Positions 5,241-61,888 of a stretch of DNA of 64,000 nucleotides are shown here, one piece after another. The notes under the pieces are model-generated. The model was not told the DNA's origin and did no database searches. It saw nothing but the letters and a program-made list of their open reading frames with translations. This stretch comes from Oribacterium parvum ACB1 (GTDB lineage Bacteria > Bacillota > Clostridia > Lachnospirales > Lachnospiraceae). The stretch is from assembly GCF_000238055.2 (NCBI RefSeq), contig NZ_KE148312.1, positions 875,201 through 939,200 of the forward strand. The letters are read 5' to 3'. Numbering within the stretch: the stretch's first letter is position 1; every line of letters starts with the position of its first letter. A program made the translations under genes and the position numbers.

Positions 5241-5549
5241 GGGGCTGTAAAAAATCAAAATAATAAAGTAATTTTTGCAATATAGGTCTGAATGCAGGGT
5301 AGTCTGAGCCCGTCGGTACTTGCGAAAAACAAGAGAATCGAAGTTTTTCGCTTAGTATCCGTTATGTAAGGACAAACTTTTCATCAGAAAAGTTGTCCTG
5401 TACAAGACCAAGGTCCGCAGGGACTTGCTTTGCGAAGCAAAGTGAGCAGTGGTTAACAAAACCACTGCTCAGTCAGGCGAAGCTAGCGAAAGCGTGCCCA
5501 AGTTCAGACCTATATTGTTAAGAAAACTATTTTGATTTTTTACAGCCCC
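5241..5549 (+). repeat. structured intergenic repeat, copy A (long form)
   Basis: An outer perfect 22-base inverted repeat (5241-5262 with 5528-5549, beginning GGGGCTGTAAAAAATC) encloses an inner perfect 15-base one (5278-5292 with 5503-5517, CAATATAGGTCTGAA). Inside are a hairpin with arms GCGAAAAAC/GTTTTTCGC-like and the long-form cassette: hairpins at 5370-5398, 5409-5427, about 5428-5443 (CTTTGC-GAA-GCAAAG) and 5443-5471 (12-base perfect stem). It fills the 451-base gap between the MtaA-like gene (stop at 5594) and the DhaR-like gene (start 5142). A TATAAT box for the latter lies at 5233-5228, just outside the repeat edge, and the repeat arm may supply its -35 region. Related copies: 14317, 21418, 61684. 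Confidence 0.85.
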
Positions 5550-5593
5550 TTCTTTGTGACATTTTATACAGCACTGTATACAACTCTCAGAAT

Positions 5594-6607
5594 TTATCTC
5601 TTTTCCTTTGCATACTCTTCGGAAATATCTTTAATCCACTGGAGTCTTTCGAGATCAATATCCTCTCGGATGGTACAGTCAGCACCAAGTCCCACACCCT
5701 TAGTTCCACTCTCATCCAGAATACGATATATTTCTTTCTTAATCTCTTCCTTTGTTCCGGTATACAGAAGGCTTCCTTCCGCATTATCAAATCCACCGAA
5801 AACCGGCTTATTATTCAATATCTTTTTTCCCTCTGCAAGAGAAATATTCTCAGAATAAATCGCCCAGTTGAAAGCCTTTACGGGATAATCTTTATACCAT
5901 TCCAAACGGTTTGTATACTTTCCATATCCGCAAATGTGGAGGAGTACATTATCCGTATATTGAAGAATCTCGTTTAAAACTTCCAGATCCAATGGCTGTA
6001 CTCTTTCTTTATGCACTTCCTCGGTAAAGCTCTTGTCCTGTACACACTGCACACTGTAATAAATTCCGTCTACATCCGTTTCCGTAAACAGCCTCTTTAC
6101 AAGCGCCTTTGTATCCTCGGCGATGCGCTTTGCAACCATAATCATTGCCTTAGGATCTTCCTTAAAGAGTCTGGTAAACTTTGTAAAGTCCTCATCATAT
6201 TCCTCAAAGCGGAGACGAATATACTGTAGCGGAGAAAAGATATTATAGTATTTATAGACATCTTTTCCTGCATGAGCACAGATTTCCTTTACATAATCCA
6301 CCTGTGCCTGAATCCAAGGGTGATTCTCTCCGACAGATTGTACTTCCTTTAACTGCTCCAGTGTAGTAATGGTAGACTTGCAAAGAGACGGATGTCCAAA
6401 GAAACCGTCAGACATAATCTTTATAAAGTCCGGCTTTGCCTCATCGATGTATTTTTTTTGTTCTGCAACAACTGTCCTCATGATGCTTGGGTCTTCCCAT
6501 CCATAGTGGTTGTGAAAGGACACAAAGTGGTGCCAGAATCCGCCAATAACTCTTTCACCTTCTTCATTTGCCAAAAAAGCATTCATTAATTCTTTTCTGT
6601 TTTCCAT
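5594..6607 (-). CDS. uroporphyrinogen-decarboxylase-family protein, MtaA-like methyltransferase fold (copy 2)
   Basis: 337 residues with the URO-D TIM-barrel pattern (GFWHHF near residue 23, NIFSPLQYIRLRF near 122). The zinc-ligand pattern of methylcobamide:CoM methyltransferases is present as His224-x-Cys226 (LLHICGYG) and Cys311 (GLGADC). The role is therefore more likely methyl transfer or a related lyase step than haem synthesis. It starts two bases after the paralogue at 6610 and ends the liv-dhaKL operon. No corrinoid protein gene is visible nearby, so the methyl carrier, if any, is unknown. The two copies share the same motifs throughout and look like an old tandem duplication. Confidence 0.75.
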   Translation of the reverse strand: MENRKELMNAFLANEEGERVIGGFWHHFVSFHNHYGWEDPSIMRTVVAEQKKYIDEAKPDFIKIMSDGFFGHPSLCKSTITTLEQLKEVQSVGENHPWIQAQVDYVKEICAHAGKDVYKYYNIFSPLQYIRLRFEEYDEDFTKFTRLFKEDPKAMIMVAKRIAEDTKALVKRLFTETDVDGIYYSVQCVQDKSFTEEVHKERVQPLDLEVLNEILQYTDNVLLHICGYGKYTNRLEWYKDYPVKAFNWAIYSENISLAEGKKILNNKPVFGGFDNAEGSLLYTGTKEEIKKEIYRILDESGTKGVGLGADCTIREDIDLERLQWIKDISEEYAKEKR

Positions 6608-6609
6608 GT

Positions 6610-7632
6610 TTACTCTCCCTGTTCTCTATTCTTTTCCTGTGCACAGTAGGTTATCCAACGCAGACGTTCATTTGCAATGCTGTTCGGTACCGAGCAATCC
6701 GCTCCAAGGATGAAGGAGCGATATTCACTCTCCTCTATGCAATCCTCTGCAAATTTCTCTACATCCGCTCTATCACCTTCTGTTATCAAAGTTTTAGGAT
6801 TGTTATCAAAACCGCCGAGAATGCATTTTCCGGGGAATAATTTCCTTCCCTCCGACAAACTGACGCCTTCCGTATGTACTGCCCAGTTATACGCCCCTGC
6901 TTCGTAGTCTTTATAGAAGTCTAAATTGTTTTTGTGATGTGCATAGCCGCAAATATGGAGGATATTATAAGGACTTAATTCATTTGCAAGTTTTAACACG
7001 GCAAGCTCGTCTTCTCCCACGATTTCTTTGTAGGTCTTCTGATCATATTTCGGGCTCTGTACATTTTGCACACAGTAATAAATGCCATCCAGTTTTGTTT
7101 CAGTAAGGAGTTTTCTTACCAGTGTCTGAATATCCTTTCCGAGCTCTTTTCCCGCATGCTGCAACTCTTTAGGATAATTCTCTGCCAGATACACAAAGCG
7201 TTCAAAGTCCAAATCAAAAAATTCCAATCGGATTCGAATCCACTGTACAGGAGAAAAAATATTGTAAAAGCACATTACCTTGTCGGAAAAAAGCTCCGTC
7301 ATCTTTTTAAGATGCTCCACCTGCTCCGTAATCCAAGGATGATCTTCCGGGAGGCTTTTTATAGTGAGAAGGTCCTCCCCATTTCTGAGAGGATTTTCCA
7401 TCACAGTCGGATGCCCGATAAATGCATCATTCATAATCTTCATGATATCGGGCTTAACTTCCTCAAAAAACTTTTTATGCCCTTCTATGGCTCTTTCTTG
7501 TGCAGCCTTATCACCGGGCTTGGCAAACTGCTCCTTTTCCGGGAGGAAATGATGCCAGAATCCTGCAGGTACTTCCTGCATTTTTTCCCCGGAAAAAGCC
7601 ATTTTAACTAGATTTCTTTTGGATTCTTGCAT
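6610..7632 (-). CDS. uroporphyrinogen-decarboxylase-family protein, MtaA-like methyltransferase fold (copy 1)
   Basis: 340 residues, paralogous to the next gene: GFWHHFLPEKEQF near the N-terminus, NIFSPVQWIRIRL near residue 122, HICGYAHH and a late FILGADCSV giving the His-x-Cys...Cys zinc-ligand set of MtaA/CmuA-type enzymes. The ATG at 7632 directly follows the TAG of dhaL (TAGATG), so translation is tightly coupled to a sugar-kinase subunit. Canonical haem-pathway uroporphyrinogen decarboxylase is unlikely because no other haem gene is present and the operon is catabolic in character. The substrate is not identifiable. Confidence 0.75.
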   Translation of the reverse strand: MQESKRNLVKMAFSGEKMQEVPAGFWHHFLPEKEQFAKPGDKAAQERAIEGHKKFFEEVKPDIMKIMNDAFIGHPTVMENPLRNGEDLLTIKSLPEDHPWITEQVEHLKKMTELFSDKVMCFYNIFSPVQWIRIRLEFFDLDFERFVYLAENYPKELQHAGKELGKDIQTLVRKLLTETKLDGIYYCVQNVQSPKYDQKTYKEIVGEDELAVLKLANELSPYNILHICGYAHHKNNLDFYKDYEAGAYNWAVHTEGVSLSEGRKLFPGKCILGGFDNNPKTLITEGDRADVEKFAEDCIEESEYRSFILGADCSVPNSIANERLRWITYCAQEKNREQGE

Positions 7633-8283
7633 CTACTTTCCTCTTTTTTCTAATGCCTTGTTCATTAAGACCTTAATTTGCAGTGCCATGGTAACCGCAC
7701 CGGGGTCCAAATGTCCCATTCCCTTATTGCTCTGATAAGTTGCCCGTCCTTTAATGGATTCCATATTTCTGGTTTCTTCTGCACCCTTTTCCGCTGCAGC
7801 CGCTACCCTCTTACACAACTCTTCGACACTTGCTCCCTCTTCCAAAGTAGCCTTATAGGCTTCTACCGCAGGGTACAAACTGTCAATCATGGTTTTAAAT
7901 CCGGGCTTAGCCTGTCCTCTTTCCATAATGGCGTTCAGCATTGCATTTAAAATCTCAAAAAGTTCCTCTTTATGGATAGCTTCCTTATCCTTCATCACTT
8001 TGGAGGCATGCAGGTAAGCACTGCCGTAGAGCACTCCGGAAGAACCTCCGATCACCGCCATCATGATTTTTCCGATTTCTTTTAACTCGGAGCTTAAGTC
8101 CATGGCCTCCAATCTTTCCTTTTCTTCGGTGAGTTTTGTGAAGCCCATGTGCAGGTTTGCCCAATGATCTCCGTCTCCTGTCGCAAGATCAAGATTGGTA
8201 ATATACTCCTCTTTTTCATTTAATTCCTGATTAACGGCAACAATATAGTCCATATAATCTTTACTGTTTAATGTAAAATTCAT
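7633..8283 (-). CDS. dhaL: DhaL, ADP-binding subunit of dihydroxyacetone-type kinase (set 2)
   Basis: 216 residues. The nucleotide/magnesium motif LDLATGDGDHWANLHMGF lies near residue 30, where the aspartates are kept but HG is HW, and GGSSGVLYG lies near residue 95. It is preceded by AGGAGGAAAT and lies 12 bases after dhaK. DhaL carries ADP as a phosphate-accepting cofactor in PTS-dependent systems or uses ATP in others. No DhaM is encoded here. It abuts the first MtaA-like gene. Confidence 0.85.
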   Translation of the reverse strand: MNFTLNSKDYMDYIVAVNQELNEKEEYITNLDLATGDGDHWANLHMGFTKLTEEKERLEAMDLSSELKEIGKIMMAVIGGSSGVLYGSAYLHASKVMKDKEAIHKEELFEILNAMLNAIMERGQAKPGFKTMIDSLYPAVEAYKATLEEGASVEELCKRVAAAAEKGAEETRNMESIKGRATYQSNKGMGHLDPGAVTMALQIKVLMNKALEKRGK

Positions 8284-8295
8284 ATTTCCTCCTCA

Positions 8296-9285
8296 TTAAT
8301 CGATCTTCAAAGCCGGAGTGTCGCAGGATGCATCCAACAGCGTCTTCATCTTGTCATTCAGCTTTAATAAAGAAAGAGAGCAACCTGTCATCTCTAAGGA
8401 AGTGGTATAGTTCCCCACAAAAGTCTTGTATGCGGTAATATTCTTTTCCTTTAATAATTTTTGTACTTCATAGTTCAGGATATAAAGTTCCATAAGCGGT
8501 GTTCCCCCTAAGCCATTGACCAGTACCGCTACTTCACTGCCTTCATAGTCATAGTCATCCAAAATTTTCTGAAGTAGAATGGCCGCAATCTCTTTCGCAG
8601 TCTTCATGGTAGTCTTCTCTACTCCGGGCTCTCCATGAATTCCCATTCCGATTTCGATTTCATTTTCCCCAAGGGTAAATCCCGGTCTTCCCACAGCAGG
8701 TAAAATACAGGGGCTCATCGCCATGCCCATACTTCTAAGGTTTTCCACCACCTCTCTGGCTACTCCTGCTACTTCACTAAGAGGAGCGCCTGTCTCAGCC
8801 ATGGCACCGGCAATTTTATGAACAAACATGGTGCCGGCGATTCCTCTTCTACCGGTAGAATAGGTGCTGTCCGGTACTGCCACATCATCTTTTACAACAA
8901 CACTTTCTACCTGGATTCCTTCCATTTCCGCCATATCCTGTGCCATACCGAAGTTCATGATATCACCGGAATAGTTCTTTATTACAAACAGTACACCCTG
9001 CCCCTTTTCCACCTTCTCAATAGCAGCTTCAATACGATCCGGACTCGGAGAGGAGAACACATTTCCGGAAACTGCGGCATCCAGCATTCCTTTTCCTACA
9101 AAGCCGGCATGAAGAGGTTCATGGCCTGCTCCGCCCCCGGAGATAACCGCAACCTTCTTATCCATATTTTTGCGATATATCACTTCCTTTTCCGGAATAT
9201 ACTCCAAGGTATCGCTGTTTGCCATCTGTAAGCCCATAAGGCACTCTTTTACTACGTCTTCCGGCTTGTTAATTATCTTTTTCAT
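8296..9285 (-). CDS. dhaK: DhaK, dihydroxyacetone-binding kinase subunit (canonical set 2)
   Basis: 329 residues with the complete active-site signature: GGGAGHEPLHAGFVGKG with His55, Asp108 in KNYSGDIMNFG, and His217 in GMGIHGEPG, the residue that forms the covalent hemiaminal with a carbonyl group. A ketose-like substrate such as dihydroxyacetone or a C4 ketose is therefore plausible. The gene begins 14 bases after livF and shares its operon, so the transporter may import the substrate or a precursor. Compare the DhaK-like gene at 1204, where both histidines are asparagine. Confidence 0.9.
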   Translation of the reverse strand: MKKIINKPEDVVKECLMGLQMANSDTLEYIPEKEVIYRKNMDKKVAVISGGGAGHEPLHAGFVGKGMLDAAVSGNVFSSPSPDRIEAAIEKVEKGQGVLFVIKNYSGDIMNFGMAQDMAEMEGIQVESVVVKDDVAVPDSTYSTGRRGIAGTMFVHKIAGAMAETGAPLSEVAGVAREVVENLRSMGMAMSPCILPAVGRPGFTLGENEIEIGMGIHGEPGVEKTTMKTAKEIAAILLQKILDDYDYEGSEVAVLVNGLGGTPLMELYILNYEVQKLLKEKNITAYKTFVGNYTTSLEMTGCSLSLLKLNDKMKTLLDASCDTPALKID

Positions 9286-9299
9286 GCTTTATCCTTTCT

Positions 9300-10007
9300 T
9301 TATCCTATTCCTAAATATGCTTCTTTTACCTTGGGGTTGTTTGCGATTTCCCTTGCATCTCCCTGCATGGTAATGAGTCCATTTTCCAAAACATAGGCAC
9401 GATTAGAAGTCTGTAGTGCCAGGTTTGCATTCTGTTCTACAAGAAGTATAGTTACACCCTGCTTCTGTATTTCCTTAATCATGTCAAAAATCAATAAAAC
9501 AATATTGGGAGCAAGTCCCAGAGACGGCTCATCTAAGAACAAGAGCTCCGGAGAAGACATCAGTGCACGTCCGACAGCAAGCATCTGCTGCTCACCGCCG
9601 GAAAGGGTTCCGGCCTGTTGCTTGATTCTTTCTTTTAATCTTGGAAACAAAGTGAATACTCTATCGTAGTTTTTCTCAATCTCTCCTTTATTGCTGATTG
9701 AAAAGGCTCCAATCCTTAAATTTTCAAGCACCGTCAAATCCGGGAAAACTTCTCTTCCCTCCGGAGAAATACTGATTTTCTTCTTACTTAACTGGTAGGG
9801 AGCAATATTGGTAATATCCTCATCATAGAGCATGACTTTTCCGCTACTGGCCTTCTGAATTCCCGTTACAGTGCTTAGCAAGGTACTCTTTCCCGCACCG
9901 TTACTTCCTATCAGAGAAACAACCTCTCCCTTATGAATTTCCAAGTCTATTCCCTTTAAGGCGTGAATTGCCCCATAATGCGTATTAAGTCCCTGAATTT
10001 TCAGCAT
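9300..10007 (-). CDS. livF: ABC transporter ATPase, LivF type
   Basis: 235 residues, the usual LivF size. Walker A GSNGAGKST near residue 36, ABC signature LSGGEQQML, Walker B LLFLDEPSLGL. It energises the LivHM permease in the branched-chain amino acid (HAAT) transporter family, whose members also import amides, urea and other small polar compounds. It overlaps livG by 23 bases. The association with dhaK/dhaL raises the possibility of a non-amino-acid substrate. Confidence 0.9.
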   Translation of the reverse strand: MLKIQGLNTHYGAIHALKGIDLEIHKGEVVSLIGSNGAGKSTLLSTVTGIQKASSGKVMLYDEDITNIAPYQLSKKKISISPEGREVFPDLTVLENLRIGAFSISNKGEIEKNYDRVFTLFPRLKERIKQQAGTLSGGEQQMLAVGRALMSSPELLFLDEPSLGLAPNIVLLIFDMIKEIQKQGVTILLVEQNANLALQTSNRAYVLENGLITMQGDAREIANNPKVKEAYLGIG

Positions 10008-10779
10008 TTTGCAACCCTCCCAAGTACGCCTCTATTACCTCTTTATTGTTTGCAATTTCCTTAGGCAAACCGTCTGCAATAGGCTTTCCATGATCGATTA
10101 CATAGATTCTGTCGGAAATGTTCATGACCACGCTCATATCATGCTCAATCATCAAAATGGTATAGCCCATGTCTCGAAGTTCACGGATAAATCCCATAAG
10201 CTCTAAGGACTCCTGTGGGTTCATCCCTGCTGCAGGCTCATCCAGTAAAATCAACTTCGCTCCCGTTGCGATGGCTCTTGCGATTTCCACCTTTCTTTGA
10301 TCTCCATAAGGAAGATTTGCCGCATACTCATCTCTTCTGTGATCCAGCTTTAAAAGTTGCAAAAGTCTAATCGCCTGTACTACTCTCTCATCTTCTTCTT
10401 TTCTAAAGCGTTTCGTTCGTAAGCTGGAATCTAAAAATGTATATTTTGTTCTGTGATGGGTTCCCACAAGAACATTTTCAATGACTCTCATGTCATGAAA
10501 AAGTCGAATATTCTGAAAGGTTCTGGCTATCCCCTTGTGCACAATTTCAATCGGCGGAAGATGGTGGATTGCTTCCCCTCTGAAATAAATTTCTCCGTGA
10601 TCCGGTTTATAAATTCCTGTCAACAGATTGAAAACAGTTGTTTTTCCTGCCCCGTTGGGACCGATAACACTGATGATTTCTCCTTTTCTTATCTGCAGAT
10701 TCACATTATCGACAGCCTTAATACCGCCGAATTGCTTGGACAGATTTTTTACCTCTAAAAGCATTTCTTCCGTACTCAT
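9985..10779 (-). CDS. livG: ABC transporter ATPase, LivG type
   Basis: 264 residues. Walker A GPNGAGKTT near residue 40, the LivG-type stretch GIARTFQNIRLF, Walker B LILLDEPAAGMNP, and the C-terminal EAYLGG typical of LivG. The signature segment reads LPYGDQRKVEIARAI, the LivG variant of LSGGQ. It pairs with LivF as the two ATPases of the HAAT importer and overlaps livM by four bases. Confidence 0.9.
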   Translation of the reverse strand: MSTEEMLLEVKNLSKQFGGIKAVDNVNLQIRKGEIISVIGPNGAGKTTVFNLLTGIYKPDHGEIYFRGEAIHHLPPIEIVHKGIARTFQNIRLFHDMRVIENVLVGTHHRTKYTFLDSSLRTKRFRKEEDERVVQAIRLLQLLKLDHRRDEYAANLPYGDQRKVEIARAIATGAKLILLDEPAAGMNPQESLELMGFIRELRDMGYTILMIEHDMSVVMNISDRIYVIDHGKPIADGLPKEIANNKEVIEAYLGGLQNAENSGT

Positions 10780-11855: not shown

Positions 11856-11858
11856 AAC

Positions 11859-14316: not shown

Positions 14317-14451
14317 GCAATATAGGTCTGAACTTGGGGCACGCTCTCGCTAGCTTCGCCACGTAACGGATACTAAGCGAAAAACTGCGTTTCTCTTGTT
14401 TTTCGCAAGTACCGACGGGCTCAGACTACCCCTCATTCAGACCTATATTGC
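14317..14451 (-). repeat. structured intergenic repeat, copy B (short form, inverted)
   Basis: A perfect 16-base inverted repeat (14317-14332 with 14436-14451, GCAATATAGGTCTGAA) encloses a core hairpin. The unit lies in the opposite orientation to the other copies. Degenerate outer arms can be traced to about 14294 and 14488 (GATTTTTTATACAGCA on the right). It lacks the hairpin cassette of the long forms and is very close to the core of copy D. It sits about 20-60 bases downstream of the lon stop and upstream of the liv promoter. Reverse reading of this unit gives a peptide ASTDGLRLPLI that recurs in other copies and is a by-product of the repeat. Confidence 0.85.
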
Positions 14452-14509
14452 AAAGAATCCCTTTATTTATTTGATTTTTTATACAGCATCTATCCTATTT
14501 TACATACTT

Positions 14510-17071
14510 TTACACCGTTTCCACTCCGGGCTTCACATAGTGAATTTCACAAAGCTCCATTCCTTCTTCCACTGTTTTAATTGGAAGAATCTGCAACTTT
14601 TCCTTGACCTCATCCGGGACGTCCCGAAGATCGTCTTCGTTTGCTTTAGGAATCAAAACGGTCTTTACGCCGGCGCGTTCCGCTGCCATAAGCTTTTCCG
14701 GAAGTCCGCCGATCGGATTAACGAGGCCTTCCAGAGAAACCTCTCCGGTCATCGCGATACGCGGACTGACTGCCTGTCCTGTCACTAAGGAGGCAAGGGC
14801 AATGGTGAGGGTAATTCCGGCAGAAGGCCCATCCTTCGGGGTTGCTCCGTCAGGCACATGAATATGCAGATCATTTTCCTTGAAAAGTTTTGCTTTATCG
14901 GGGAACATAGACTTCACAAGGCTGATGGCAATCTGCGCCGACTCCTTCATGACGTCACCAAGCTGTCCGGTAATGTTCAGCTTTCCTTCTCCCTTTGTGA
15001 ACATACTCTCAATATAGAGAATCTCTCCTCCGACTGCGGTCCAAGCAAGACCGGTAACGATACCCGGCTTTCCCTCTTCCTTGACTTCTCTTCTGTGAAG
15101 CGGATTCATGTCCAGATATTCTCTCAAATCTTCCTTCCCTACGGAAATCTTCTCTCCCTTTCCCTTAACAAGATGAACTGCCGCAATTCGGCAGAGGGTG
15201 TCAAGTCTCTTCTTTAAGCCTCTGACACCGGCTTCTCTTGTGTAATCGGAAATAATATTTTCCAAGGCTTCATCCGTAAGTTCTACATTTTCCGCTTGTA
15301 ATCCTACACCCTTTAATGACTTCCTAAGGAGATGACGCTTTCCAATCTCAAATTTCTCTCTCGGAGTGTAACCCTGATACTGAATCACTTCCATACGATT
15401 TAAGAGGGGCGCCGGAATGGTATCCAGGGAGTTCGCCGTACAGATAAAGAGTACATCGGATAAATCATAAGGCACATTCATGTAGTGATCCGTGAAGGTA
15501 TTGTTTTGCTCCGGATCCAAAACTTCAAGAAGGGCTGCCGCGGGATCTCCGTTATAGGACGAAGACAGTTTATCCACCTCATCCAGCACCATGACCGGAT
15601 TGGAAACGCCGGACTTCTGTATCCCGTCCATGATTCTTCCCGGCATAGCACCAAGATACGTTCTTCTGTGTCCGCGAATATCTGCCTCATCTCGCACACC
15701 GCCAAGGCTTACACGAACATATTTTCTTCCGAGAGCCTTCGCAATACTTTTTCCAATACTGGTTTTACCGGTACCGGGTGCACCCACAAAGAGGAGAATA
15801 GACCCGGACTGCTGCTTTTTCAGATTCATGACCGCAATCTGCTGAATCATTCTCTCCTTAACCTTCTTTAAGCCGAAGTGATCCTCGGACAGGATCTTCT
15901 CCGCCTCATCAAGGTCTATTTCCTTCTGTTCTTCCTTCTTCCAGGATAGTCCGGTCAGGAAATCCAGATAGTCATAAAGCATACCGGCTTCCTGGCCGTT
16001 TGTGCCTTCATTTTTCAGGCGATTTAAAATCTTCGTAGCTTCCTTTTTCGCCGTCTCATTCATGCCGGCTTCTTCAATACGAAGTTCAAACTTACGGAGG
16101 TCGGAAACCTTCTCCGGATGCATCTCATCGAGCTCTTTCTGGAGGTAATCAATCTGCTTTTGGAGGGCCTGCTCCTTATAGAGTTTTTGATAATCCTCCT
16201 GCTGCTGGGTTCTCGCATCGGTGGTAACCTTCGTCACCTCGATATATTCATAGATAATCTGCTCCAGCATCTTCGTACGAACGGAAAGTCGATCCTCCTG
16301 CAGGACATGGTACCGCTCTTCGTTGTTAATGCTAAGCCAGGGGGACAGAACACAGCCGACCTCTTGAATCGACTTATGGCGTTCAATCATACCCGCCATA
16401 ACCTTCCCTGCATGAAAACGCCCTACCAAGTCCTTCAGCTCTTCCTTAATTTCTCCAAGCTTTCTGTCAGCCTCTTCCTGATCCAAGTCCTCCACATCAT
16501 AAAGAGGGATTGTCTTTAAAACTAGGGGCTGTCCTTCCTCCTGAGAAAGCTCCTCAATACTTACTCTATTGCCTGTTGCAACAACTGCATAGCCGTCCTG
16601 ACTGATTTCCTTGATTGTACCTTCTACCGCTACAGGATACACTTCCTCTTTATGAAGTGCCTTGGTATCCACTTCATTTTTATGTAAAACAGCCAAAAGA
16701 AGCTTGTCCCCTTCTTCTACTGTCTTTCCTGCCAGAGTTCTAAAATTATCAATCTGAAAATAGATGGTGGAATTCGGCAAAATCATCATGTTGTAAACCG
16801 GTACTACTCGCATAGCCTGTCCTCCTCGTTCCTTATTTTTTTCTTTGGAAAATACCTTTAAAGCCTCCTCCACCTTACCGGCATGCTCCAGCTTGTCTTT
16901 AGGAAAATGCACCTCCTCGACTGCTTTCTCGGAAGCTGCAATTTCCTTCTCTTTCGGAATTTCTCTGGAAATGGCAGAAATCATCCCTTTCTTTTTCTCT
17001 TTTTTTTCTGCCTCTTCTTTCCTTCCTCTTATCCATTTTTTTAGTGCGTCCACTAATTGATTCATTTTCAT
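14510..17071 (-). CDS. lon: ATP-dependent protease Lon, with an 86-residue N-terminal extension
   Basis: Hexameric cytosolic protease for damaged proteins. After a lysine/glutamate-rich extension (residues 1-86) come the LON substrate domain (MRVVPVYNMMILPNS), a coiled middle domain, AAA+ (Walker A GAPGTGKT, Walker B VMVLDEVDK) and the Ser-Lys protease domain (KDGPSAGIT with the catalytic Ser, and the Lys about 43 residues later in LMAAERAG/K context). I chose ATG 17071, six bases after AAGAGG. A second in-frame ATG at 16813, seven bases after AGGAGG, would give the ordinary 767-residue Lon, so two forms may be made. The promoter carries a CIRCE element. Repeat copy B follows the stop. Confidence 0.9.
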   Translation of the reverse strand: MKMNQLVDALKKWIRGRKEEAEKKEKKKGMISAISREIPKEKEIAASEKAVEEVHFPKDKLEHAGKVEEALKVFSKEKNKERGGQAMRVVPVYNMMILPNSTIYFQIDNFRTLAGKTVEEGDKLLLAVLHKNEVDTKALHKEEVYPVAVEGTIKEISQDGYAVVATGNRVSIEELSQEEGQPLVLKTIPLYDVEDLDQEEADRKLGEIKEELKDLVGRFHAGKVMAGMIERHKSIQEVGCVLSPWLSINNEERYHVLQEDRLSVRTKMLEQIIYEYIEVTKVTTDARTQQQEDYQKLYKEQALQKQIDYLQKELDEMHPEKVSDLRKFELRIEEAGMNETAKKEATKILNRLKNEGTNGQEAGMLYDYLDFLTGLSWKKEEQKEIDLDEAEKILSEDHFGLKKVKERMIQQIAVMNLKKQQSGSILLFVGAPGTGKTSIGKSIAKALGRKYVRVSLGGVRDEADIRGHRRTYLGAMPGRIMDGIQKSGVSNPVMVLDEVDKLSSSYNGDPAAALLEVLDPEQNNTFTDHYMNVPYDLSDVLFICTANSLDTIPAPLLNRMEVIQYQGYTPREKFEIGKRHLLRKSLKGVGLQAENVELTDEALENIISDYTREAGVRGLKKRLDTLCRIAAVHLVKGKGEKISVGKEDLREYLDMNPLHRREVKEEGKPGIVTGLAWTAVGGEILYIESMFTKGEGKLNITGQLGDVMKESAQIAISLVKSMFPDKAKLFKENDLHIHVPDGATPKDGPSAGITLTIALASLVTGQAVSPRIAMTGEVSLEGLVNPIGGLPEKLMAAERAGVKTVLIPKANEDDLRDVPDEVKEKLQILPIKTVEEGMELCEIHYVKPGVETV

Positions 17072-18607: not shown

Positions 18608-18695
18608 CGGAGATGATGGGATTTGAACCCATGCGCCGGTTGCCCGACCTACCGCATTTCGAGTGCGGACCCTTCAACCACTTGGGTACATCTCC
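18608..18695 (-). tRNA. tRNA-Ser(CGA)
   Basis: A class II cloverleaf of 88 bases: acceptor GGAGATG/CATCTCC, anticodon stem CCGCA/TGCGG with loop CTCGAAA giving anticodon CGA, a long variable arm and TTCAAAT in the T loop. No CCA is encoded. Shares a transcript with tRNA-Leu. Confidence 0.95.
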
Positions 18696-18760
18696 TTATA
18701 AAGGCAATACAAAAGGTATAAAAAAACCGGCGAGATAACTCACCGATTATTCTCCTTTGC

Positions 18761-18846
18761 TGCCGGCGACCGGGGTCGAACCGGTATGAGATTTGTGTCT
18801 CGCAGGATTTTAAGTCCTGTGCGTCTACCTATTCCGCCACGCCGGC
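18761..18846 (-). tRNA. tRNA-Leu(TAA)
   Basis: A class II cloverleaf of 86 bases: acceptor GCCGGCG/CGCCGGC, anticodon stem CAGGA/TCCTG with loop CTTAAAA giving anticodon TAA, a long variable arm and GGTTCGACC in the T arm. No CCA is encoded. Confidence 0.95.
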
Positions 18847-21417: not shown

Positions 21418-21655
21418 AAAAGGATATTGGAATAAGGGGTAATCTGAGCCCGTCAGTACTTGCCAAAAGCGAGCGAAGTGATGCTTGAGGCTTAGTACTG
21501 ATACGAAAGGACAACTTTTCATCAGAAAAGTTGTCCTGTACAAGACCAACTTCTGAAGGAAGTTGCTTTGCGAAGCAAAGTGAGCAATGGGCTACCGAGC
21601 CCATGCTCAGTCAGGCGAAGTTAGCGAGAGCGTGCCCCTGTTCCAATATCCTTTT
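21418..21655 (+). repeat. structured intergenic repeat, copy C (long form, divergent)
   Basis: A perfect 15-base inverted repeat (21418-21432 with 21641-21655, AAAAGGATATTGGAA) replaces the terminal sequence of copies A, B and D but keeps the pairing. The interior aligns with copy A: core stem TCAGTACT/AGTACTGA, then hairpins at 21508-21537 (13-base perfect stem), 21547-21565, about 21566-21580 and 21581-21609. No outer GGGGCTG arms are present. It sits between the convergent stops of tex (21346) and the ABC-F gene (21672), occupying almost the whole gap. Confidence 0.85.
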
Positions 21656-42666: not shown

Positions 42667-42904
42667 AAAAAAAGTCGCCTCCTATCGGGTTATTGACGAT
42701 AAGTTGGTGACTGTACACGTTTCCGCGCGTATCTTATACAAATACACACGCCGCACCCGCTGCTTGGTGCTTAAATTGTAGTACAGTGACCTGCCGTCAG
42801 TTTCTAAACTTGACATTCGCTCCGGAAAGTTCTCTGTAGAAACTTATGCCTTACGGTTTTCGCTTCTATAGTAATCTTCTCCTTCATCGCTATCATGCCA
42901 CAGC
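42667..42904 (-). ncRNA. structured leader of the S10 operon (unassigned)
   Basis: The minus-strand leader before rpsJ contains several possible helices: an AGTTTCTA/TAGAAACT pair (about 42833-42799), a GCACC/GGGTGC hairpin (about 42770-42752) and a CGTGTGTAT/ATACGCGCG hairpin (about 42750-42723, with GU pairs). Its 5' part includes GATGAAGGAGAAGATTAC, which resembles the start of T-box leaders, but I find no T-box bulge consensus. It could be an autoregulatory ribosomal-protein leader. Confidence 0.35.
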
Positions 42905-51700: not shown

Positions 51701-51705
51701 TCTTT

Positions 51706-55152: not shown

Positions 55153-55231
55153 CCCATCGACCTTTAACCTAACAACACGTAGAAGAGTATAAATTTTGAC
55201 TTTACTATATCTTTTTTCAACTCTATTATTT

Positions 55232-56056
55232 CTAGTTCATTAAGCCTTCAAGATACTGCTTCGCATAAAGAATATCTCTAATTTGCTCTTCTCCGGATAT
55301 CTCCCTTTCAATTGTAATATCTCCCTGATAACCTACATCTTGAAGCTTTTTTAAAAAGAGAGGATAATTCACCTTTCCATCTCCAATCCTAGTTTCCTTT
55401 CCCAGCGCTTTAGGAGAAGTAGGATAAAGGCCATCCTTCCCGTGAACTCCGCGTATCTTACTACCGAAAATCTCCACTGCATCTACAGGGTTCGCTTTAC
55501 CATATAATAAGAGATTCGCGGGATCTAAATTTACTCCCAAAAAATCCGATTCTATATCCTCTATCATTCTCATAAGTGTTATAGGTGTCTCCTGTCCTGT
55601 TTCAAAAAGAAAATACTGCTGATTTGCTTCACACACCTTCATTAAATCCTTTAAGACCGCAAGAGTCCCTGTATACTGCGGATCATTCTGGTTTTCCGGC
55701 AGAAAACCTACATGCGTGACCAAGTCAGAAACACCTAAATCTTTAGCGAAGAAAGAACCTTCCTTTAAGCTTATTAATCTCTCCATCCTAAATGTCTCCG
55801 GAACTAAACCCAAGGTAATTGGTCCTTCTGTAAAATTCCAAAATGTAGGTCCTTCCCATCCACACCAAAAGGCAGTAACATGCACTTTTAGTGCTTCTGT
55901 CACCTCTTTTATTTTTTTTGCATTTTTCTCAGAATTAAAAAACTTTCTATCCCACGACACCACTTGGCAACTGTAAAGACCAAGATCAACTAAATTTTTA
56001 AACTCTTTTTCAATATCCGAGCTACAATTTAAGCGAACAACACATCCGATATTCAT
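55232..56056 (-). CDS. sugar phosphate isomerase/epimerase, IolE-like TIM barrel (1)
   Basis: 274 residues of the xylose-isomerase-like TIM-barrel family. Metal-site candidates are Glu in YFLFETGQETP near residue 153, Asp in LGVNLDPANLL near 182, His in IRGVHGKDG near 212 and Glu in ITIEREIS near 255. Likely isomerises, epimerises or dehydrates a keto-sugar or inositol derivative with Mn/Mg. Very similar along its whole length to the gene at 60569. Lies 10 bases after the MalG-type permease. Confidence 0.85.
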   Translation of the reverse strand: MNIGCVVRLNCSSDIEKEFKNLVDLGLYSCQVVSWDRKFFNSEKNAKKIKEVTEALKVHVTAFWCGWEGPTFWNFTEGPITLGLVPETFRMERLISLKEGSFFAKDLGVSDLVTHVGFLPENQNDPQYTGTLAVLKDLMKVCEANQQYFLFETGQETPITLMRMIEDIESDFLGVNLDPANLLLYGKANPVDAVEIFGSKIRGVHGKDGLYPTSPKALGKETRIGDGKVNYPLFLKKLQDVGYQGDITIEREISGEEQIRDILYAKQYLEGLMN

Positions 56057-56066
56057 GATTTATCTC

Positions 56067-56897
56067 CTATCCTTTTACAGCTCCTGCTGTTATTCCTGTT
56101 ACTATATACTTTTGCATAATTAAGAAAAAAAGCAAGCTTGGAATGATACTCATCATCGTACCAGGTAAAGCATGAGACCAGTCTGTACTTTGAACAGAGA
56201 AAAACATATATAAGGCATTCTGGATATTCATAGAACTCATCTTTGTTCCAACAATTAACTGATTCGTAATAACATCATTCCAAGTAGAAAGAGCGTCCAA
56301 GACCAATACCGTCGTTAGTATGGGCCGCAAAAGAGGCAAAATAATATAGAAGTAGCATTGATAAATATTCGCCCCATCAATATACGCACTTTCTTCCAAA
56401 GTCAAAGGAATTGTATTGATATAATTATAGATAATATAAACTGCCAAGGGTAATAACAAGCCCACAGTCACTGAAATATATCCTATACGAGTTCCTATGA
56501 GGCGAAAACCTCCTAGAAATTTGGTCAAAGAAATCATATAGGTCTGAAATGGTACCATAATCGGAAGGAGAAGTAGCATAAGGCTAATTTTAGAAAGGAA
56601 CATATGCTTTCTTCTTGCCAAAAAGTAGGACGCCATCGGCGCTAAAAGTAAAACCATTGCCGTTGTAATCACAGTATAAAAAACCGTATTCTTCAAGAGC
56701 AAAGGAAAATTAAACTTGTTCCAAGTCGCAAAATAGTATTGCAAGGTCCATTCTTTAGGAAGCTCCAAAAAATGGTTAATAATCTCTGCATCTCCCTTAA
56801 AAGAATTCATAAAGATAAAGATAAGAGGCATAAGCCAAAAGAGAGATAAAAAAATAGTGATAACGAAAATCCCTTTACTAAGAATTGCCTTTTTCAC
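56067..56897 (-). CDS. carbohydrate ABC transporter permease, MalG type
   Basis: 276 residues. I place the start at GTG 56897 (VKKAILSKGIFVITIFLSLF), preceded by GGAGG and overlapping the stop of the upstream permease gene as GTGA. Six membrane helices; the EAA loop is EESAYIDGANIYQCYFYIILP near residue 180. Inner-membrane subunit for a sugar. No ATPase is encoded nearby, so a shared MsmX-type ATPase from elsewhere is expected. Confidence 0.9.
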   Translation of the reverse strand: MKKAILSKGIFVITIFLSLFWLMPLIFIFMNSFKGDAEIINHFLELPKEWTLQYYFATWNKFNFPLLLKNTVFYTVITTAMVLLLAPMASYFLARRKHMFLSKISLMLLLLPIMVPFQTYMISLTKFLGGFRLIGTRIGYISVTVGLLLPLAVYIIYNYINTIPLTLEESAYIDGANIYQCYFYIILPLLRPILTTVLVLDALSTWNDVITNQLIVGTKMSSMNIQNALYMFFSVQSTDWSHALPGTMMSIIPSLLFFLIMQKYIVTGITAGAVKG

Positions 56898-57778
56898 ATC
56901 TCCACCTCCCATTTTTTTCTAAGTCGGAACAGGGCAACAGTAATACAAAGTACAACCATTACAAAGAAAAGTGATTTTGCAGTTGCAAGACCGTAATGGT
57001 TTGCACTAAAAGCCTCCTTATAAATGTTAAAAGAAACTGTATTTGTACTATTCACCGGCCCACCTTGAGTGAAAACCATAATAATATCAAATAGCTTTAA
57101 TCCGAACATCATAGATAAGAGAATACAAATAGAGAGGGAGGGGATCATTAGGGGTAGCATCACTTTCATAAAGCATTGCTTACTGCTTGCCCCATCAATT
57201 ACAGCCGCTTCCACAAGCTCTCTTGGAATTGTAATAATACCCGCAATATAGTTCACCATATAGAAACCGATATTCTGCCAGATGGTCATTACTAAAATGA
57301 TAATAAAAGTAAGTTTCGGTCTTCCCAACCAGCTATAATGAAAGAATGGAATACCGGTAATATCATAAAATCCGGAAAACACAGGTCCCAATATAAACTG
57401 CCAAACCAAACTTATTGCTGTAAGAGATATAATGTGAGGAACATAATACAAGGTCCTTCCCACCTTACTTGTAAAAGTATTTTTCCATAATTGGAGTGCC
57501 ACAAAAAGAGATAAAATATTCACGAGAATAACATAGAAAAAAGTATAACGCATGGTAAAAAGAAAGCTCTTCCAAAACACTTTATCATGAAATACTTTCG
57601 CAAAATTCTGCAAGCCCACAAAAGTTGCTGACTTGGAGATTCCATTCCATTCAAACAAGGAATACACCATATTTAAAACGAATGGTATATCCGTAGCCAG
57701 TAGCACAAAAAACAGTGCCGGAAGAACAAAGAGTATAAAATGGATATATTGCCTCCGACCTCGATGTATGCTTCCCAT
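56894..57778 (-). CDS. carbohydrate ABC transporter permease, MalF type
   Basis: 294 residues with six membrane helices. EAA loop EAAVIDGASSKQCFMKVMLP near residue 190. Typical MalF-type start with a basic N-terminus (MGSIHRGRRQYIHFILFVLP). Pairs with the downstream MalG-type subunit. Preceded by a hairpin at 57824-57875 that separates it from the binding-protein gene. Confidence 0.9.
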   Translation of the reverse strand: MGSIHRGRRQYIHFILFVLPALFFVLLATDIPFVLNMVYSLFEWNGISKSATFVGLQNFAKVFHDKVFWKSFLFTMRYTFFYVILVNILSLFVALQLWKNTFTSKVGRTLYYVPHIISLTAISLVWQFILGPVFSGFYDITGIPFFHYSWLGRPKLTFIIILVMTIWQNIGFYMVNYIAGIITIPRELVEAAVIDGASSKQCFMKVMLPLMIPSLSICILLSMMFGLKLFDIIMVFTQGGPVNSTNTVSFNIYKEAFSANHYGLATAKSLFFVMVVLCITVALFRLRKKWEVEM

Positions 57779-57823
57779 ACCTTCTCCTTTCTCCGGATCC
57801 TATATATAAACATCTATCCCTAT

Positions 57824-57875
57824 TTTGATTAGGAACCGGAGCACAGCCCAAGACTGGCCCCGGTTCTTAATCAAA
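57824..57875 (-). terminator. intra-operon hairpin after the binding-protein gene
   Basis: A 15 of 16-base stem (57824-57839 with 57860-57875) with GC-rich core GGAACCGG, about 55 bases past the binding-protein stop. Hairpins here usually stabilise the binding-protein mRNA and reduce read-through into permeases. T-run is weak. Confidence 0.65.
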
Positions 57876-57930
57876 TGAATTCTTAATTTATTGAAATGTA
57901 TATTAACTCCATAGATCCAGCCTTAAGCTT

Positions 57931-59238
57931 TTATTGCAAATTTTTAAAGTAATCCTCAAAGCCTTGCGTTACTTCATCTTTTGTATACTCTCCAAGAATA
58001 TAACCCTGAATCAATGGCCCTACTGTATCAGAGTAGGTCGTATCACAAATGGTATGAATCCATCCATTAGTCTTTCCAGCCTTTATGTATTTCTGAGCAT
58101 CCTGCGGAAGATCACCAGAAGGTTGTAAATCAGAAGTCGTACTTGCAGGAACGGCATCAACGCCCTCTGTCATCCACTTTGCGCCGTCTTCACTACAGAG
58201 AACATATTCGCAATATTCCTTTGCAAGATCTAGATTTGGAGAATCCTTATAAACTTGAAATACCCAACCTACAGAAGATAAGATTGTATTATCTGCTTCA
58301 GTACTGCCAACCGGAACAGGAAGGAATGCCAGCTTAGTATCCGGTCCCATCTTTGTAAAATTAGCCTGTGCCCAGTCTCCCATATGAAGCATTGCCGCTT
58401 CTCCTGTAGCTACTGCATTTTCAGCAGGCTCCCAACCAGTCTCCACAGCCTTATCCCCATCATACTCTTTAACCAAATCTAAAAGTTTAAAGAAGTTATC
58501 CCAGTGTGGAAGATCTTTAAAGGTTTTTTCCCCGCTCTTCAAAGCCTTTACTGTACCTTCTGCATCCAAAGTCTTATCCATAATAAAGTGGGTTGCCATC
58601 TGTCCCAGTGCCCACTTTTCCTTTCCTGCAATGGAAAGAGGCTTTACTCCATTCTCCTGAAGCTTCTTGCAAACTTCCCCTAATTCTTCAACAGAATTGG
58701 GAAGTGTTGTTATGCCCGCCTTATCAAAAACATCCTTATTATAAATAAGAGCCATAGTCTCATAAGTCCAAGGCAAACCGTAGATTGCACCATCTTCAGT
58801 CTTAGTAAGGTTTAAAGCATCCTCTTTGAACTTCGCCAGTATCTCTGCATCCTTCGACCAGTCATAAGAGTACTCGTAGTAAAGCTGAGCGCCTGCTCCT
58901 GGCTCATTTAAGAAAATATCAGGGATATCTCCAGAATTAAATCTAGACTGTAAAAGAGTATTACTATCATTTGCAGCATGCTGAATTTCCACCTTTACAC
59001 CCGGGTGATTCTCCTCAAATTTTTTAATTACTTCATCATAGGCTTCAATTCCATATGCCATGGAATCATAAACTTTTAAGACTATTTCCTGTCCATCCTT
59101 TTTTTCCTCCGCTTTTTCTGTCTCCTTAGAGACAGTCGTCCCCGCCTGATTCTCCTTCTCTTCCGCCTTCTGCCCGCAAGAGCAAAGAAGCATAGCAGAA
59201 AGACTCACCGCCATCATTACTGCCATCATTTTTTTCAT
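57931..59238 (-). CDS. extracellular sugar-binding lipoprotein
   Basis: 435 residues with a lipoprotein signal ending LLCSCGQK (Cys near residue 22), then a Glu/Lys linker and a solute-binding protein family 1 domain (IVLKVYDSMAYGIEAYDEVI, NHPGVKVEIQHAANDSNTLL, and GLPWTYETMALIYNKDVFDKAG, split here as GLPWTYETMALIYNKDVF). It captures an oligo- or monosaccharide for the MalFG-type permease. Acidic, ordinary length. First transporter gene after the Gfo/Idh gene at 59297. Confidence 0.9.
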   Translation of the reverse strand: MKKMMAVMMAVSLSAMLLCSCGQKAEEKENQAGTTVSKETEKAEEKKDGQEIVLKVYDSMAYGIEAYDEVIKKFEENHPGVKVEIQHAANDSNTLLQSRFNSGDIPDIFLNEPGAGAQLYYEYSYDWSKDAEILAKFKEDALNLTKTEDGAIYGLPWTYETMALIYNKDVFDKAGITTLPNSVEELGEVCKKLQENGVKPLSIAGKEKWALGQMATHFIMDKTLDAEGTVKALKSGEKTFKDLPHWDNFFKLLDLVKEYDGDKAVETGWEPAENAVATGEAAMLHMGDWAQANFTKMGPDTKLAFLPVPVGSTEADNTILSSVGWVFQVYKDSPNLDLAKEYCEYVLCSEDGAKWMTEGVDAVPASTTSDLQPSGDLPQDAQKYIKAGKTNGWIHTICDTTYSDTVGPLIQGYILGEYTKDEVTQGFEDYFKNLQ

Positions 59239-59271
59239 ACACTTTCTCCTTTACTTAAATATTTTCCTACA

Positions 59272-59293
59272 CAGACCTTATCTCTAAGGTCTG
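59272..59293 (-). other. hairpin between oxidoreductase and binding-protein genes
   Basis: A perfect 9-base stem (CAGACCTTA with TAAGGTCTG), four-base loop, directly after the stop at 59297. There is no T-run, so it is more likely an mRNA-processing or stability element than a terminator. Confidence 0.5.
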
Positions 59294-59296
59294 CTT

Positions 59297-60307
59297 TTAA
59301 CTTTGCTTTGTTTGTTCCCAAAGTTCTACCCCAAGTCTTACCGACTCAATAGCATCTTGCAGAGATACCGGTTTTTCCTCATCTTTCCCCAGCAGGTAAG
59401 AAATAAACTTCCGATCTTCAATCAAGTAGGCTCCCAAGCTCTTGATGTTGATTTCACTCTGAATCTCTATCTCATCTCCAGCAGTCCTTACCTTCTCCTG
59501 CTTTCCATCTGCACATAGAAAAATATGCTCTTTATCAATCGCAGAATTATATTGTATAGTCGCCTTTTCAAAATCCGCACGATAGTTTGCTTGGAATGGA
59601 TAGGAATCGGAATGATACCAACTAGCCTCACTTAATACTTCCAAATCAGAATACTTGGCCTTAGTCAAAACATGATTCACCATTCCGCTTTCAAACTTCG
59701 TAAAATGAATAACTTCAGCTTTTAATGGCTCACCTAAAACAAATCTCATAAAATCCAAATCATGGATATGTAAATCCAAAATAACACTCCCGGATTTTTT
59801 CTCGTCGTGGAACCAATCTTCATAGCCCCAACCCACATCCCCAGAAAGCCTTTCAAAGGATAAATCTAGAAGCTTGCCATATTTTCCCGATTCAATACAT
59901 GACTTCAAAAATCGATATTCAGGCATATGTCTTACCACTTGTCCAATACATATAGGTTTTGTATAGTCTTTCTCCATAGCTACAAGTGCATCGCAATCCT
60001 TTAGGGATAAGCATACCGGTTTTTCACAAAAAATAGAAAGCTTCTTCTCCATCGCTTTCTTCATTAGTGAAAAATGTTCATAGCTTGGCGCAATGATAAA
60101 TACTGTATCTAAATTCTCCTTTTCCAAGAGTTCTATTCCATCTGTGTATATTTGGGCATCAGGAAAAATTTTTTCCGCCATCTCTTGACGTTCTTTTCGT
60201 TTATCCGCAATTGCAGACACGAAAATATCTTCTTTACTAGCAATTTCTTGTAAACAGAGCAAATGGGTATATCCCATTCCTCCTACACCGATAAAGCCAA
60301 TCCTCAT
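59297..60307 (-). CDS. Gfo/Idh/MocA-family oxidoreductase (2)
   Basis: 336 residues: Rossmann motif IGFIGVGGMGYTHLLCL at the N-terminus, CEKPVCLSLKDCDALVAM near residue 93 with the conserved Lys, and SGSVILDLHIHDLDFMRFVL near 173 with the His-x-His-x2-Asp substrate motif. Likely NAD(P)-dependent oxidation of a cyclic polyol or sugar. First gene of the unit oxidoreductase-binding protein-permeases-isomerase-ROK-oxidoreductase. Strong GGAGGG upstream. Confidence 0.87.
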   Translation of the reverse strand: MRIGFIGVGGMGYTHLLCLQEIASKEDIFVSAIADKRKERQEMAEKIFPDAQIYTDGIELLEKENLDTVFIIAPSYEHFSLMKKAMEKKLSIFCEKPVCLSLKDCDALVAMEKDYTKPICIGQVVRHMPEYRFLKSCIESGKYGKLLDLSFERLSGDVGWGYEDWFHDEKKSGSVILDLHIHDLDFMRFVLGEPLKAEVIHFTKFESGMVNHVLTKAKYSDLEVLSEASWYHSDSYPFQANYRADFEKATIQYNSAIDKEHIFLCADGKQEKVRTAGDEIEIQSEINIKSLGAYLIEDRKFISYLLGKDEEKPVSLQDAIESVRLGVELWEQTKQS

Positions 60308-60382
60308 GGAACCCTCCTTATCTTTCTATAAAAATTAACACGAGCAATTTCGAATTATTATATATAACTATTGTATTCATAA

Positions 60383-60401
60383 TTGTAATGTCACTTTACA
60401 A
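60383..60401. promoter_or_regulatory. operator-like dyad upstream of the sugar operon
   Basis: TTGTAA-N7-TTACAA lies about 75-95 bases upstream of the gene at 60307. The 11-mer ATTGTAATGTC that contains its left half (60382-60392) recurs at 61452-61462 upstream of the second isomerase gene. Candidate site for the ROK regulator. The rest of 60308-60480 is very AT-rich with an ATGATA/TATCAT dyad at about 60422-60436. Confidence 0.45.
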
Positions 60402-60489
60402 ATAAATCTATTCATAGTTTTTATGATATTTTATCATATTTTTTGTGCATTATGCATAATTCGTCCTAATGTCATATCTTTAGCTATTA

Positions 60490-60519
60490 AAAAAGAAGAG
60501 ACAAAAGTCTCTTCTTTTT
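60490..60519. terminator. hairpin terminator after the second isomerase gene
   Basis: A perfect 13-base stem (60490-60502 with 60507-60519), four-base loop, A/T runs on both ends, 50 bases past the stop at 60569. It separates this gene from the operon starting at 60307. Confidence 0.8.
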
Positions 60520-60568
60520 GAAAACAATACTATCTTCTGCACCACCTCTATGCATCGCATTGATGAGT

Positions 60569-61396
60569 CTACATTTTTTCCAACAGTCCCTGAAGAAATT
60601 GCTTAGTATACAGAATATCTCTTATCTTTTCAGCGGTAATTTCTTTTTCTATTGTGATATCCCCCTGATATCCTACTTCCTGCAGCTTCTTCAAAAACAA
60701 AGGATAGTTCACTCTTCCGTCACCGATTCTGACTTCTTCTCCCGGCTCCTGTCCGGAAGTCGGATAGAAGCCGTCCTTTCCGTGTACACCGCGGATTTTG
60801 CTTCCAAACATTTCTACTGCATCAATCGGATTGGCCTTGCCATATCGGAGAAGGTTTGCAGGATCGAGATTAACACCAAGGAATTCCGATCCGACATCTT
60901 CCATTGCTCTCAAAAGGGTAGCCGGTGTCTCCAGCCCTGTTTCGAATAGAAAATACTGCTGGTTGGCTTCACAGACCTTCATCAATTCCTTCAGCGCTAA
61001 AATTGTGCCTGCATACTTTGGATCTTTAGGATCTTCCGGTAAAAATCCCACATGGGTAGCCAAATCGGAAACTCCAATATCCTTAGCAAAGAAAGATCCT
61101 TCCTTTAAGCTTATGAGTCTCTCCATCCTATACGCTTCCGGAACCAATCCCATAGTCATCGGTCCCTCGAAGAAATTGGAAAACTTCGGACCTTCCCATC
61201 CACACCAAAAAGCACTAATCTGCACATTTAAAGCTGCAGTCACCTCTTTCACTTTCTGTGCATTCTTTTCTGAATTGTAAAACTTTCTGTCCCATGAAAT
61301 AAGCTGACAACTATGAAGACCCAGTCTTACCAGATTTTTCAGCTCTTTTTCAATGTCCGAATCATTCCCCAAGCGAACCACACAAGCAATGTTCAT
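60569..61396 (-). CDS. sugar phosphate isomerase/epimerase, IolE-like TIM barrel (2)
   Basis: 275 residues, a close paralogue of the gene at 55232 from end to end (MNIACVVRLGNDSDIEKELK against MNIGCVVRLNCSSDIEKEFK), with the same metal-site candidates (FLFETGLETP, GVNLDPANLL, IRGVHGKDG, ITIEKEIT). It is transcribed on its own between a terminator and repeat copy D. The duplication may be recent, giving two enzymes with different regulation or slightly different substrates. AGGAGG site upstream. Confidence 0.85.
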   Translation of the reverse strand: MNIACVVRLGNDSDIEKELKNLVRLGLHSCQLISWDRKFYNSEKNAQKVKEVTAALNVQISAFWCGWEGPKFSNFFEGPMTMGLVPEAYRMERLISLKEGSFFAKDIGVSDLATHVGFLPEDPKDPKYAGTILALKELMKVCEANQQYFLFETGLETPATLLRAMEDVGSEFLGVNLDPANLLRYGKANPIDAVEMFGSKIRGVHGKDGFYPTSGQEPGEEVRIGDGRVNYPLFLKKLQEVGYQGDITIEKEITAEKIRDILYTKQFLQGLLEKM

Positions 61397-61683
61397 TTAT
61401 TTTCCTCCTAAATAGCATATACATCACGCAAGCAGTAATAATTCTTTCTCTATTGTAATGTCGCACAAAAAACTATTCCACATACAATTTTTATGCTGTT
61501 TAATAAATATTTTTCGATGATTTCCTCAATATATCTTATAAAATCATCACGGAATAAGACCTCCGAGCTTTGACATCCGGACAGCTTCTTTTTACTTAAA
61601 TAGACACTCCTCTCGTCTAAAATATTCCACATATAGCAAATCGACTAGTTTTTTTATTTTATAACCTTTTTTAATTAAAAAAA

Positions 61684-61888
61684 GGGGCTGTAAAAAAAAT
61701 CAAAATAATAAAGTGATTTTTGCAATATAGGTCTGAATGCGGGGTAGTCTGAGCCCGTCGGTACTTGCGAAAAACAAGAGAAATGCAGTTTTTCGCTTAG
61801 TATCCGTTACGTGGCGAAGCTAGCGAGAGCGTGCCCAAGTTCAGACCTATATTGCTTAGAAAATTATTTTGATTTTTTTTACAGCCCC
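61684..61888 (+). repeat. structured intergenic repeat, copy D (short form)
   Basis: An outer perfect 26-base inverted repeat (61684-61709 with 61863-61888, beginning GGGGCTGTAAAAAAAATC) surrounds an inner perfect 16-base one (61722-61737 with 61840-61855). The core hairpin has arms GCGAAAAAC/GTTTTTCGC. The sequence matches copy A except that the hairpin cassette of about 100 bases is absent. It ends 13 bases from the stop of the gene at 61902. The remaining gap 61397-61683 is AT-rich; one 60-codon frame there is not convincing. Confidence 0.88.

Follow-up and report, generated by a model that had tools for sequence, protein, structure and literature searches.

The BOX elements of Streptococcus pneumoniae are modular, structured, intergenic and present in many copies, with an optional internal module, and the REP/BIME repeats with their RAYT transposases are palindromic, lie behind genes, and occur as inverted doublets. 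Ordinary miniature inverted-repeat transposable elements (MITEs) preserve their ends and let the middle diverge, and bacterial examples such as RUP and Correia/NEMIS are short, non-coding and multi-copy, with inverted terminal repeats, target-site duplications and internal deletions. MITEAba12 belongs to the same group, in so far as the accessible part of its description (PMC6382973) goes. The repeat family analyzed here, four copies of which (A to D) lie in a 64,000-nucleotide stretch of the genome of Oribacterium parvum ACB1 (hereafter, the window), resembles each of these systems in the traits just listed (the target-site duplications being seen in at least one genome), but differs from bacterial MITEs in that its interior keeps its fold and its sequence over many genera and obeys a GNRA loop rule, whereas its ends and arms vary by genome. 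It is set apart from BOX, by description rather than by sequence, in that its internal module also occurs outside the element and its fold is branched with a GNRA hairpin, and from REP/BIME by being a branched element of ∼130–310 bp that Y1 transposases do not track. Our reading, to which we assign a probability of roughly 0.7, is that these are small MITE-type DNA elements, non-coding and non-autonomous, in which a core with an RNA-like fold has been conserved; this is the best supported of the explanations considered, with direct support in one relative and indirect support in the genome of the window.

Each element is non-coding and comprises a core of ∼100 nt enclosed by inverted arms of tens of bp. 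Along the sense strand, the outer arms are followed by the closing stem P1, then a short stem (which reads GGGG/CCCC in the window's own genome), a long bulged hairpin of the form GCC-CGU-NNG-UAC/GUA-CNN-ACG-GGC, variable at its tip, and a small GC-GNRA-GC hairpin, with the closing stem and the two hairpins meeting at a junction. Copies B and D represent a short form, and copies A and C a long form, which is the short form plus a 107–108 bp insert of several hairpins. This insert module is also found outside recognized elements in the own genome, G000 (for example, at G000:C1:646577, 384780 and 1695210), and at locus L051 it lies, as read by eye, directly behind the apparent end of a permease gene. 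The arm sequence GGGGCTGTAAAA occurs 39 times in the own genome, compared to once for a reversed-pattern control, and some of these sites are without a core.

The fold of the core is under RNA-type selection, as evidenced by both compensatory changes and the rule obeyed by its loop. We considered three alignments, of which A1 is a MAFFT alignment of 15 copies, while A2 (41 sequences) and A3 (82 rows, 79 of them distinct, from a search of 66 fetched loci) were fitted to a covariance model and thus lean towards that model. In A1, 98.4% of 643 cells pair, which drops to 33–50% when the partners are slid, and 24 of the 43 pairs (including 16 of 16 in P1) have changed on both sides, values reached by none of 500 shuffles. 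The corresponding figures for A2 are 95.8% and 33–44%, with one of five measures, the number of further pair types, not rising above the shuffles (344 of 500). The loop of the small hairpin has four bases in 77 of the 79 distinct A3 rows, and in all 77 of these it is a GNRA loop (GAGA 42, GGGA 13, GAAA 8, GCGA 6, GCAA 5 and GGAA 3), although some lean towards GNRA is expected from a model whose training sequences carry such loops; of the remaining two rows, one has a six-base loop and one a long insert placed at the loop. This hairpin is closed by GC/GC pairs in 73 rows and by compensated variants in 5. A varied second base, combined with a third base limited to A or G, fits the GNRA rule of RNA, which differs from the rule for stable DNA loops. 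The depth of the conservation of the core and the GNRA rule are the surprising part of these data, and DNA transposition alone does not explain them. A hammerhead-like reading of CUGAG...GAAG, judged by eye, was dropped since these bases vary among family members.

The most direct evidence for mobility is provided by the metagenome-assembled genome (MAG) RUI455 (G707), in which the copies have a common end, GTTACTGTTCACA, with 93 matches at ≤1 mismatch compared to 3 for the control. Among the 32 paired ends present in fetched stretches (a subset of the 93 end matches), perfect 8 bp direct repeats lie outside 17, compared to 0 of 992 mismatched pairs, and repeats matching at ≥7/8 positions outside 21, compared to 1 of 992; three of the 32 pairs, with five or six end mismatches, are probably due to chance and were kept in the count, and one stretch at a contig end dropped out. 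These duplications indicate insertion of the RUI455 elements at the DNA level, by an enzyme that acts on their ends. Core-less or partly core-less derivatives of 52–121 bp with good ends also occur in this genome, and six of the seven carry perfect repeats, with the seventh matching at 7/8. Across 118 copies from all genomes, a 7-mer repeat is found in 6, compared to 0.66 expected, and three of these copies come from RUI455 and one (L034) is an own-genome copy of another subfamily with a 7-base candidate duplication. The site of copy B also differs between sister genomes, with a core in the own genome, where G001 retains the arms, together with a remnant of one inner arm, and lacks the core. 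In addition, L022 and L023 have a common left flank, and L023 and L018 a common right flank, suggesting recombination between copies.

The original prediction knew of four copies and had named a covariance-model search of this genome and of related Lachnospiraceae as a check, which shows the family to be widespread rather than confined to those four places. A BLASTN search of the own 2.47 Mb genome with the 130 nt interior of copy D gave 16 full-length rows at 92–100% identity (D and B included), along with many partial ones. The covariance model, built from 15 short-form copies and applied within the genus with a cutoff of E ≤ 0.01, gave 60 matches in the own genome (where 150 of 834 candidates were scored) and at least 133 in the sister genome G001 of the same genus. 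Five of 17 genomes of the genus, the own included, have matches (60, 133, 8, 5 and 1), and 12 have none at this cutoff. Within the family, the motif was detected at E ≤ 1e-4 in 81 of 299 sampled genomes (own included), with ≤10 candidates scored per genome, such that the counts are lower bounds, and a sample of the phylum with 8 candidates scored per genome gave 5 of 398, four of them in the family (again including the own) and one, G658, outside the class. A pattern scan of named genomes returned 75 stretches, mostly labeled as Lachnospiraceae or its genera, and 39 copies in 37 stretches were inspected. These genomes include [Lactobacillus] rogosae, which NCBI places in Lachnospiraceae and whose copy is identical over 160 bases to one in a same-family genome (L088), Butyrivibrio hungatei, Coprococcus comes and Blautia, as well as Anaerovibrio (Negativicutes) and two MAGs labeled Bacteroides and Muribaculaceae, which may be mis-binned. 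With one copy as the query against each, BLASTN gave no match in phages or plasmids. Two pattern matches in IMG/VR, at equivalent positions of two related contigs, were taken as chance, as they lie in apparently continuous coding sequence with no flanking fold; the pattern used in that search would miss the GGTACTTGC type of the own genome.

Turning to the window itself, all four copies were found where the original prediction had placed them (Table 1), with the interior order it described, and each folds strongly, with z-scores of −17.8 (A), −12.7 (D), −11.3 (C) and −7.7 (B), and with no shuffle equaling the native fold of any copy. Copy C turns out to belong to another subfamily. The statement that no protein is encoded stands to the extent that no open reading frame (ORF) of ≥90 aa lies inside any window copy, with two listed ORFs, 5532–5858 and 14396–14788, overlapping the edges of copies A and B, respectively. 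Elsewhere in the window, an S10-Clostridia leader (42791–42895) and two tRNAs (18608–18846) are ordinary.

Table 1. Copies of the repeat in the window and their constituent parts, with positions counted from the first nucleotide of the window
Feature	Position	Strand	Basis
Copy A, long form with D-type arms, the outer ones being GGGGCTGTAAAA.../...TTTTACAGCCCC	5241..5549	+	sequence, BLASTN, folding
Copy A, closing stem P1, 5′ strand (GCAATATAGGTCTGAA)	5277..5292	+	
Copy A, 108 bp insert module, several hairpins	5368..5475	+	
Copy A, loop of the small hairpin in the core, GNRA-type (GAAA)	5488..5491	+	sequence
Copy A, closing stem P1, 3′ strand	5503..5518	+	
Copy B, short form, P1 and core intact, outer arms decayed	14317..14451	-	
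Copy C, long form, distinct P1 family (AAAAGGATATTGGAATA), without GGGGCTGT arm	21418..21655	+	
Copy C, insert module	21507..21613	+	
Copy D, short form with arms of the D type, 13 bp beyond the 3′ end of the gene at 61902-63878 (-)	61684..61888	+	

The position of the elements relative to genes bears on the question of whether they are instead a cis-acting 3′-end RNA of the host (a terminator, mRNA stabilizer or RNase III site) that has been spread by ordinary recombination. Of the ∼60 copies in the own genome, 36 could be placed, with ORFs called on both sides, and these lie, in either orientation, between convergent (15) or co-directional (21) genes and never between divergent ones (0 of 36), compared to 2 convergent, 24 co-directional and 6 divergent among 32 background gaps, a contrast that is understated because the four gaps of the window that carry elements are counted in the background. 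A wider set, 75 copies taken from fetched loci, splits into 27 convergent, 41 co-directional and 7 divergent cases, on crude ORF calls and without a background. The suggestion of a functional 3′-end RNA in the original prediction is supported as regards position only. Strong folding also agrees with such a role, as do homopolymer runs at the arm edges in G000 and G001, where runs of four or more T are found at the right edge of 16 of 42 copies, compared to 4 of 42 further out, and runs of four or more A at the left edge of 25, compared to 8. In addition, at the site of copy B, the outer arm reads GAGACTG/CAGTCTC in G001 and GGGGCTG/CAGCCCC elsewhere, such that the letters have changed on both sides and the pairing has been kept. 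However, the orientation relative to the genes is free (among co-directional copies, 13 antisense and 8 sense in the own genome; in the wider set, 22 vs 19), and yet the GNRA rule is one-stranded; the 106 copies from the other fetched genomes show no enrichment of edge runs (T: 18 vs 13; A: 20 vs 20); and the genus contains the dozen matchless genomes described above. Taking both sides into account, we consider a host 3′-end RNA to be quite improbable, and terminators were rejected as the general home of the element, given that the run enrichment does not extend beyond G000 and G001.

A number of observations weigh against the MITE reading. A conserved middle with drifting ends is the reverse of what is seen in ordinary MITEs, and the GGGGCTGT-type ends of the main subfamily of G000 and G001 show a direct duplication in ≤1 of 33 paired ends at any offset (one mismatch being allowed, and some pairs lacking the full core). 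No mobilizing partner was found in searches covering Y1-type and IS256-type transposases, with the IS256-type family PF00872 being absent from G000, G001 and G707; nor was a gene-sized spacing of GTTACTGTTCACA end pairs seen among the end matches listed for RUI455, which is itself a MAG. The core-less derivatives in RUI455 keep perfect duplications, so movement may not require the core, although they could equally have lost it after insertion. Seven of the 75 copies in the wider set were called as divergent, on the crude ORF calls mentioned above. Finally, in the genome RGIG4233, seven copies have a common core and ∼10 nt of inner arm between outer arms that are unrelated and yet well paired (over 10–20 nt, within-copy pairing of 8.9 out of 10, compared to a between-copy likeness of 5.4 and a control of 5.6), which is not explained by simple MITE spread and would require either that the core enters existing hairpins or that insertion makes an inverted copy of the target.

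The RGIG4233 arms are what would be expected if the core itself were the moving part, entering the dyad center (the hairpin loop) of an existing palindrome, for instance a terminator or another MITE, and duplicating no target, with the arms being those of the host palindrome. Core-less palindromes with the same arms are present in both G000 and RUI455, and the D-type ends are without duplications, both of which agree with this scenario. Against this, the arms and core in RUI455 form one unit, with the 8 bp duplications lying at the ends of the arms; core-less forms may just as well result from deletion; and T- and A-runs at the arm edge show no enrichment among the 106 copies from genomes other than G000 and G001. 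Furthermore, the P1 stems of the 16 non-D copies in the own genome sort into two groups of related sequences (8 and 7 copies, with one copy in neither), and 29 of 120 pairwise comparisons exceed the shuffled 99th percentile, compared to 0.8 expected, such that these groups look like lineages that have drifted with compensation. An ungapped block comparison of P1 arms in the own genome gave a between-copy value of 6.0 of 10, no higher than the left-versus-right value of 5.9. On balance, insertion of a mobile core into pre-existing palindromes appears to us doubtful, if credible.

We note that comparison of the window sites with relatives gave further material. The site of copy B is occupied by an ordinary GC-rich hairpin with a T-run in G002, and no element was seen by eye in short stretches of G009, G014 and G011. 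The site of copy A in G002 also holds an ordinary hairpin, and in the intergenic region of copy C, G001 has a 5′-truncated copy of the D type, beside which (G001:C2:240752-241600, L112) lies an apparent small toxin–antitoxin gene pair. At L101, L105, L089 and L032, a full copy is followed closely by a second, 5′-truncated 3′-half copy in the same orientation.

Hairpins at many gene ends also call to mind a family of the REP/BIME type, mobilized by a Y1 (RAYT or IS200-like) transposase, as does the arrangement of close copy pairs, which is minus–plus in 7 of 7 cases among the 122 of 133 G001 matches listed and is reminiscent of REP doublets (in the other genomes of the 75-copy set, five close pairs are minus–plus and one is plus–plus). 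The presence of PF01797 does not track the element across genomes, and a Y1 transposase was thus rejected as the mobilizer: G002 and G009 carry the element and no PF01797 match, G003 lacks the element despite 30 PF01797 matches (a good part of which are fragments), and no element was found in 10 fetched Y1 loci. Moreover, Y1 enzymes are not expected to leave 8 bp duplications. This explanation is therefore largely refuted, and we give it almost no credence. At one own-genome locus (L131, G000:C1:249560), we observe what we take to be an IS200-like gene followed by the apparent start of a group II intron. A second hairpin repeat, AACGAGATATCGC...GCGATATCTCGTTA, and its variants were noted by eye beside element copies or alone, at this locus and at L017, L042, L043 and L046 in G000 and L075 in G001; one pattern for this type gave no exact match in the window.

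Returning to MITE-like elements with an RNA-like core, the original prediction had listed such an identity alongside a BOX-like modular repeat. The former agrees with the 8 bp duplications in a relative, the insertion in either orientation and the high copy number, but not with the lack of duplications at the main-subfamily ends in the own genus, while the latter holds as a description, given the insert inside and outside the element. Mechanistically, the mobilizing enzyme would act in trans and may have been lost or have escaped recognition, and copies would survive at gene ends because they do the least harm, or some good, there. The core may be kept because its RNA form helps the element, and in G000 and G001 the outer arms could serve as bidirectional terminators. 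A bolder version, which we regard as distinctly unlikely, has the GNRA-capped core acting in trans as an RNA, recruiting or guiding the spreading machinery. The element would then be a miniature RNA-dependent mobile element, with the core carried in different sets of ends and entering the centers of palindromes, a life cycle that would leave orientation-free insertion and strict RNA-type loop conservation over many genera.

In line with the original prediction, which could not match the repeat to a named RNA family, Rfam 15 gave no match to the element at gathering thresholds in the window and 20 family loci, and three weak matches to copy A at E ≤ 10 (E of 2.5–3.4) were all far below gathering. 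Close to one element match, at a distance of 88 bp, lies a TwoAYGGAY candidate RNA (RF01731; L091:1251-1412, minus strand). Among the papers listed by our literature searches, none was seen to describe the repeat family. A screen for structured RNAs in the human microbiome lists 3161 candidates, including 250 palindromic ones, with 230 predicted to form terminator stem-loops (PMC8040213), and these might include members of the family.

An apparently undescribed repeat family is thus present in about a quarter of the sampled Lachnospiraceae genomes, at the 3′ ends of many genes. That its middle, rather than its ends, is conserved, and follows an RNA rule, is hard to fit to ordinary MITE biology, and allows the idea that small mobile elements may rely on a structured RNA of their own to be put to the test. 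The family also bears on how transcription ends in Lachnospiraceae gut bacteria.

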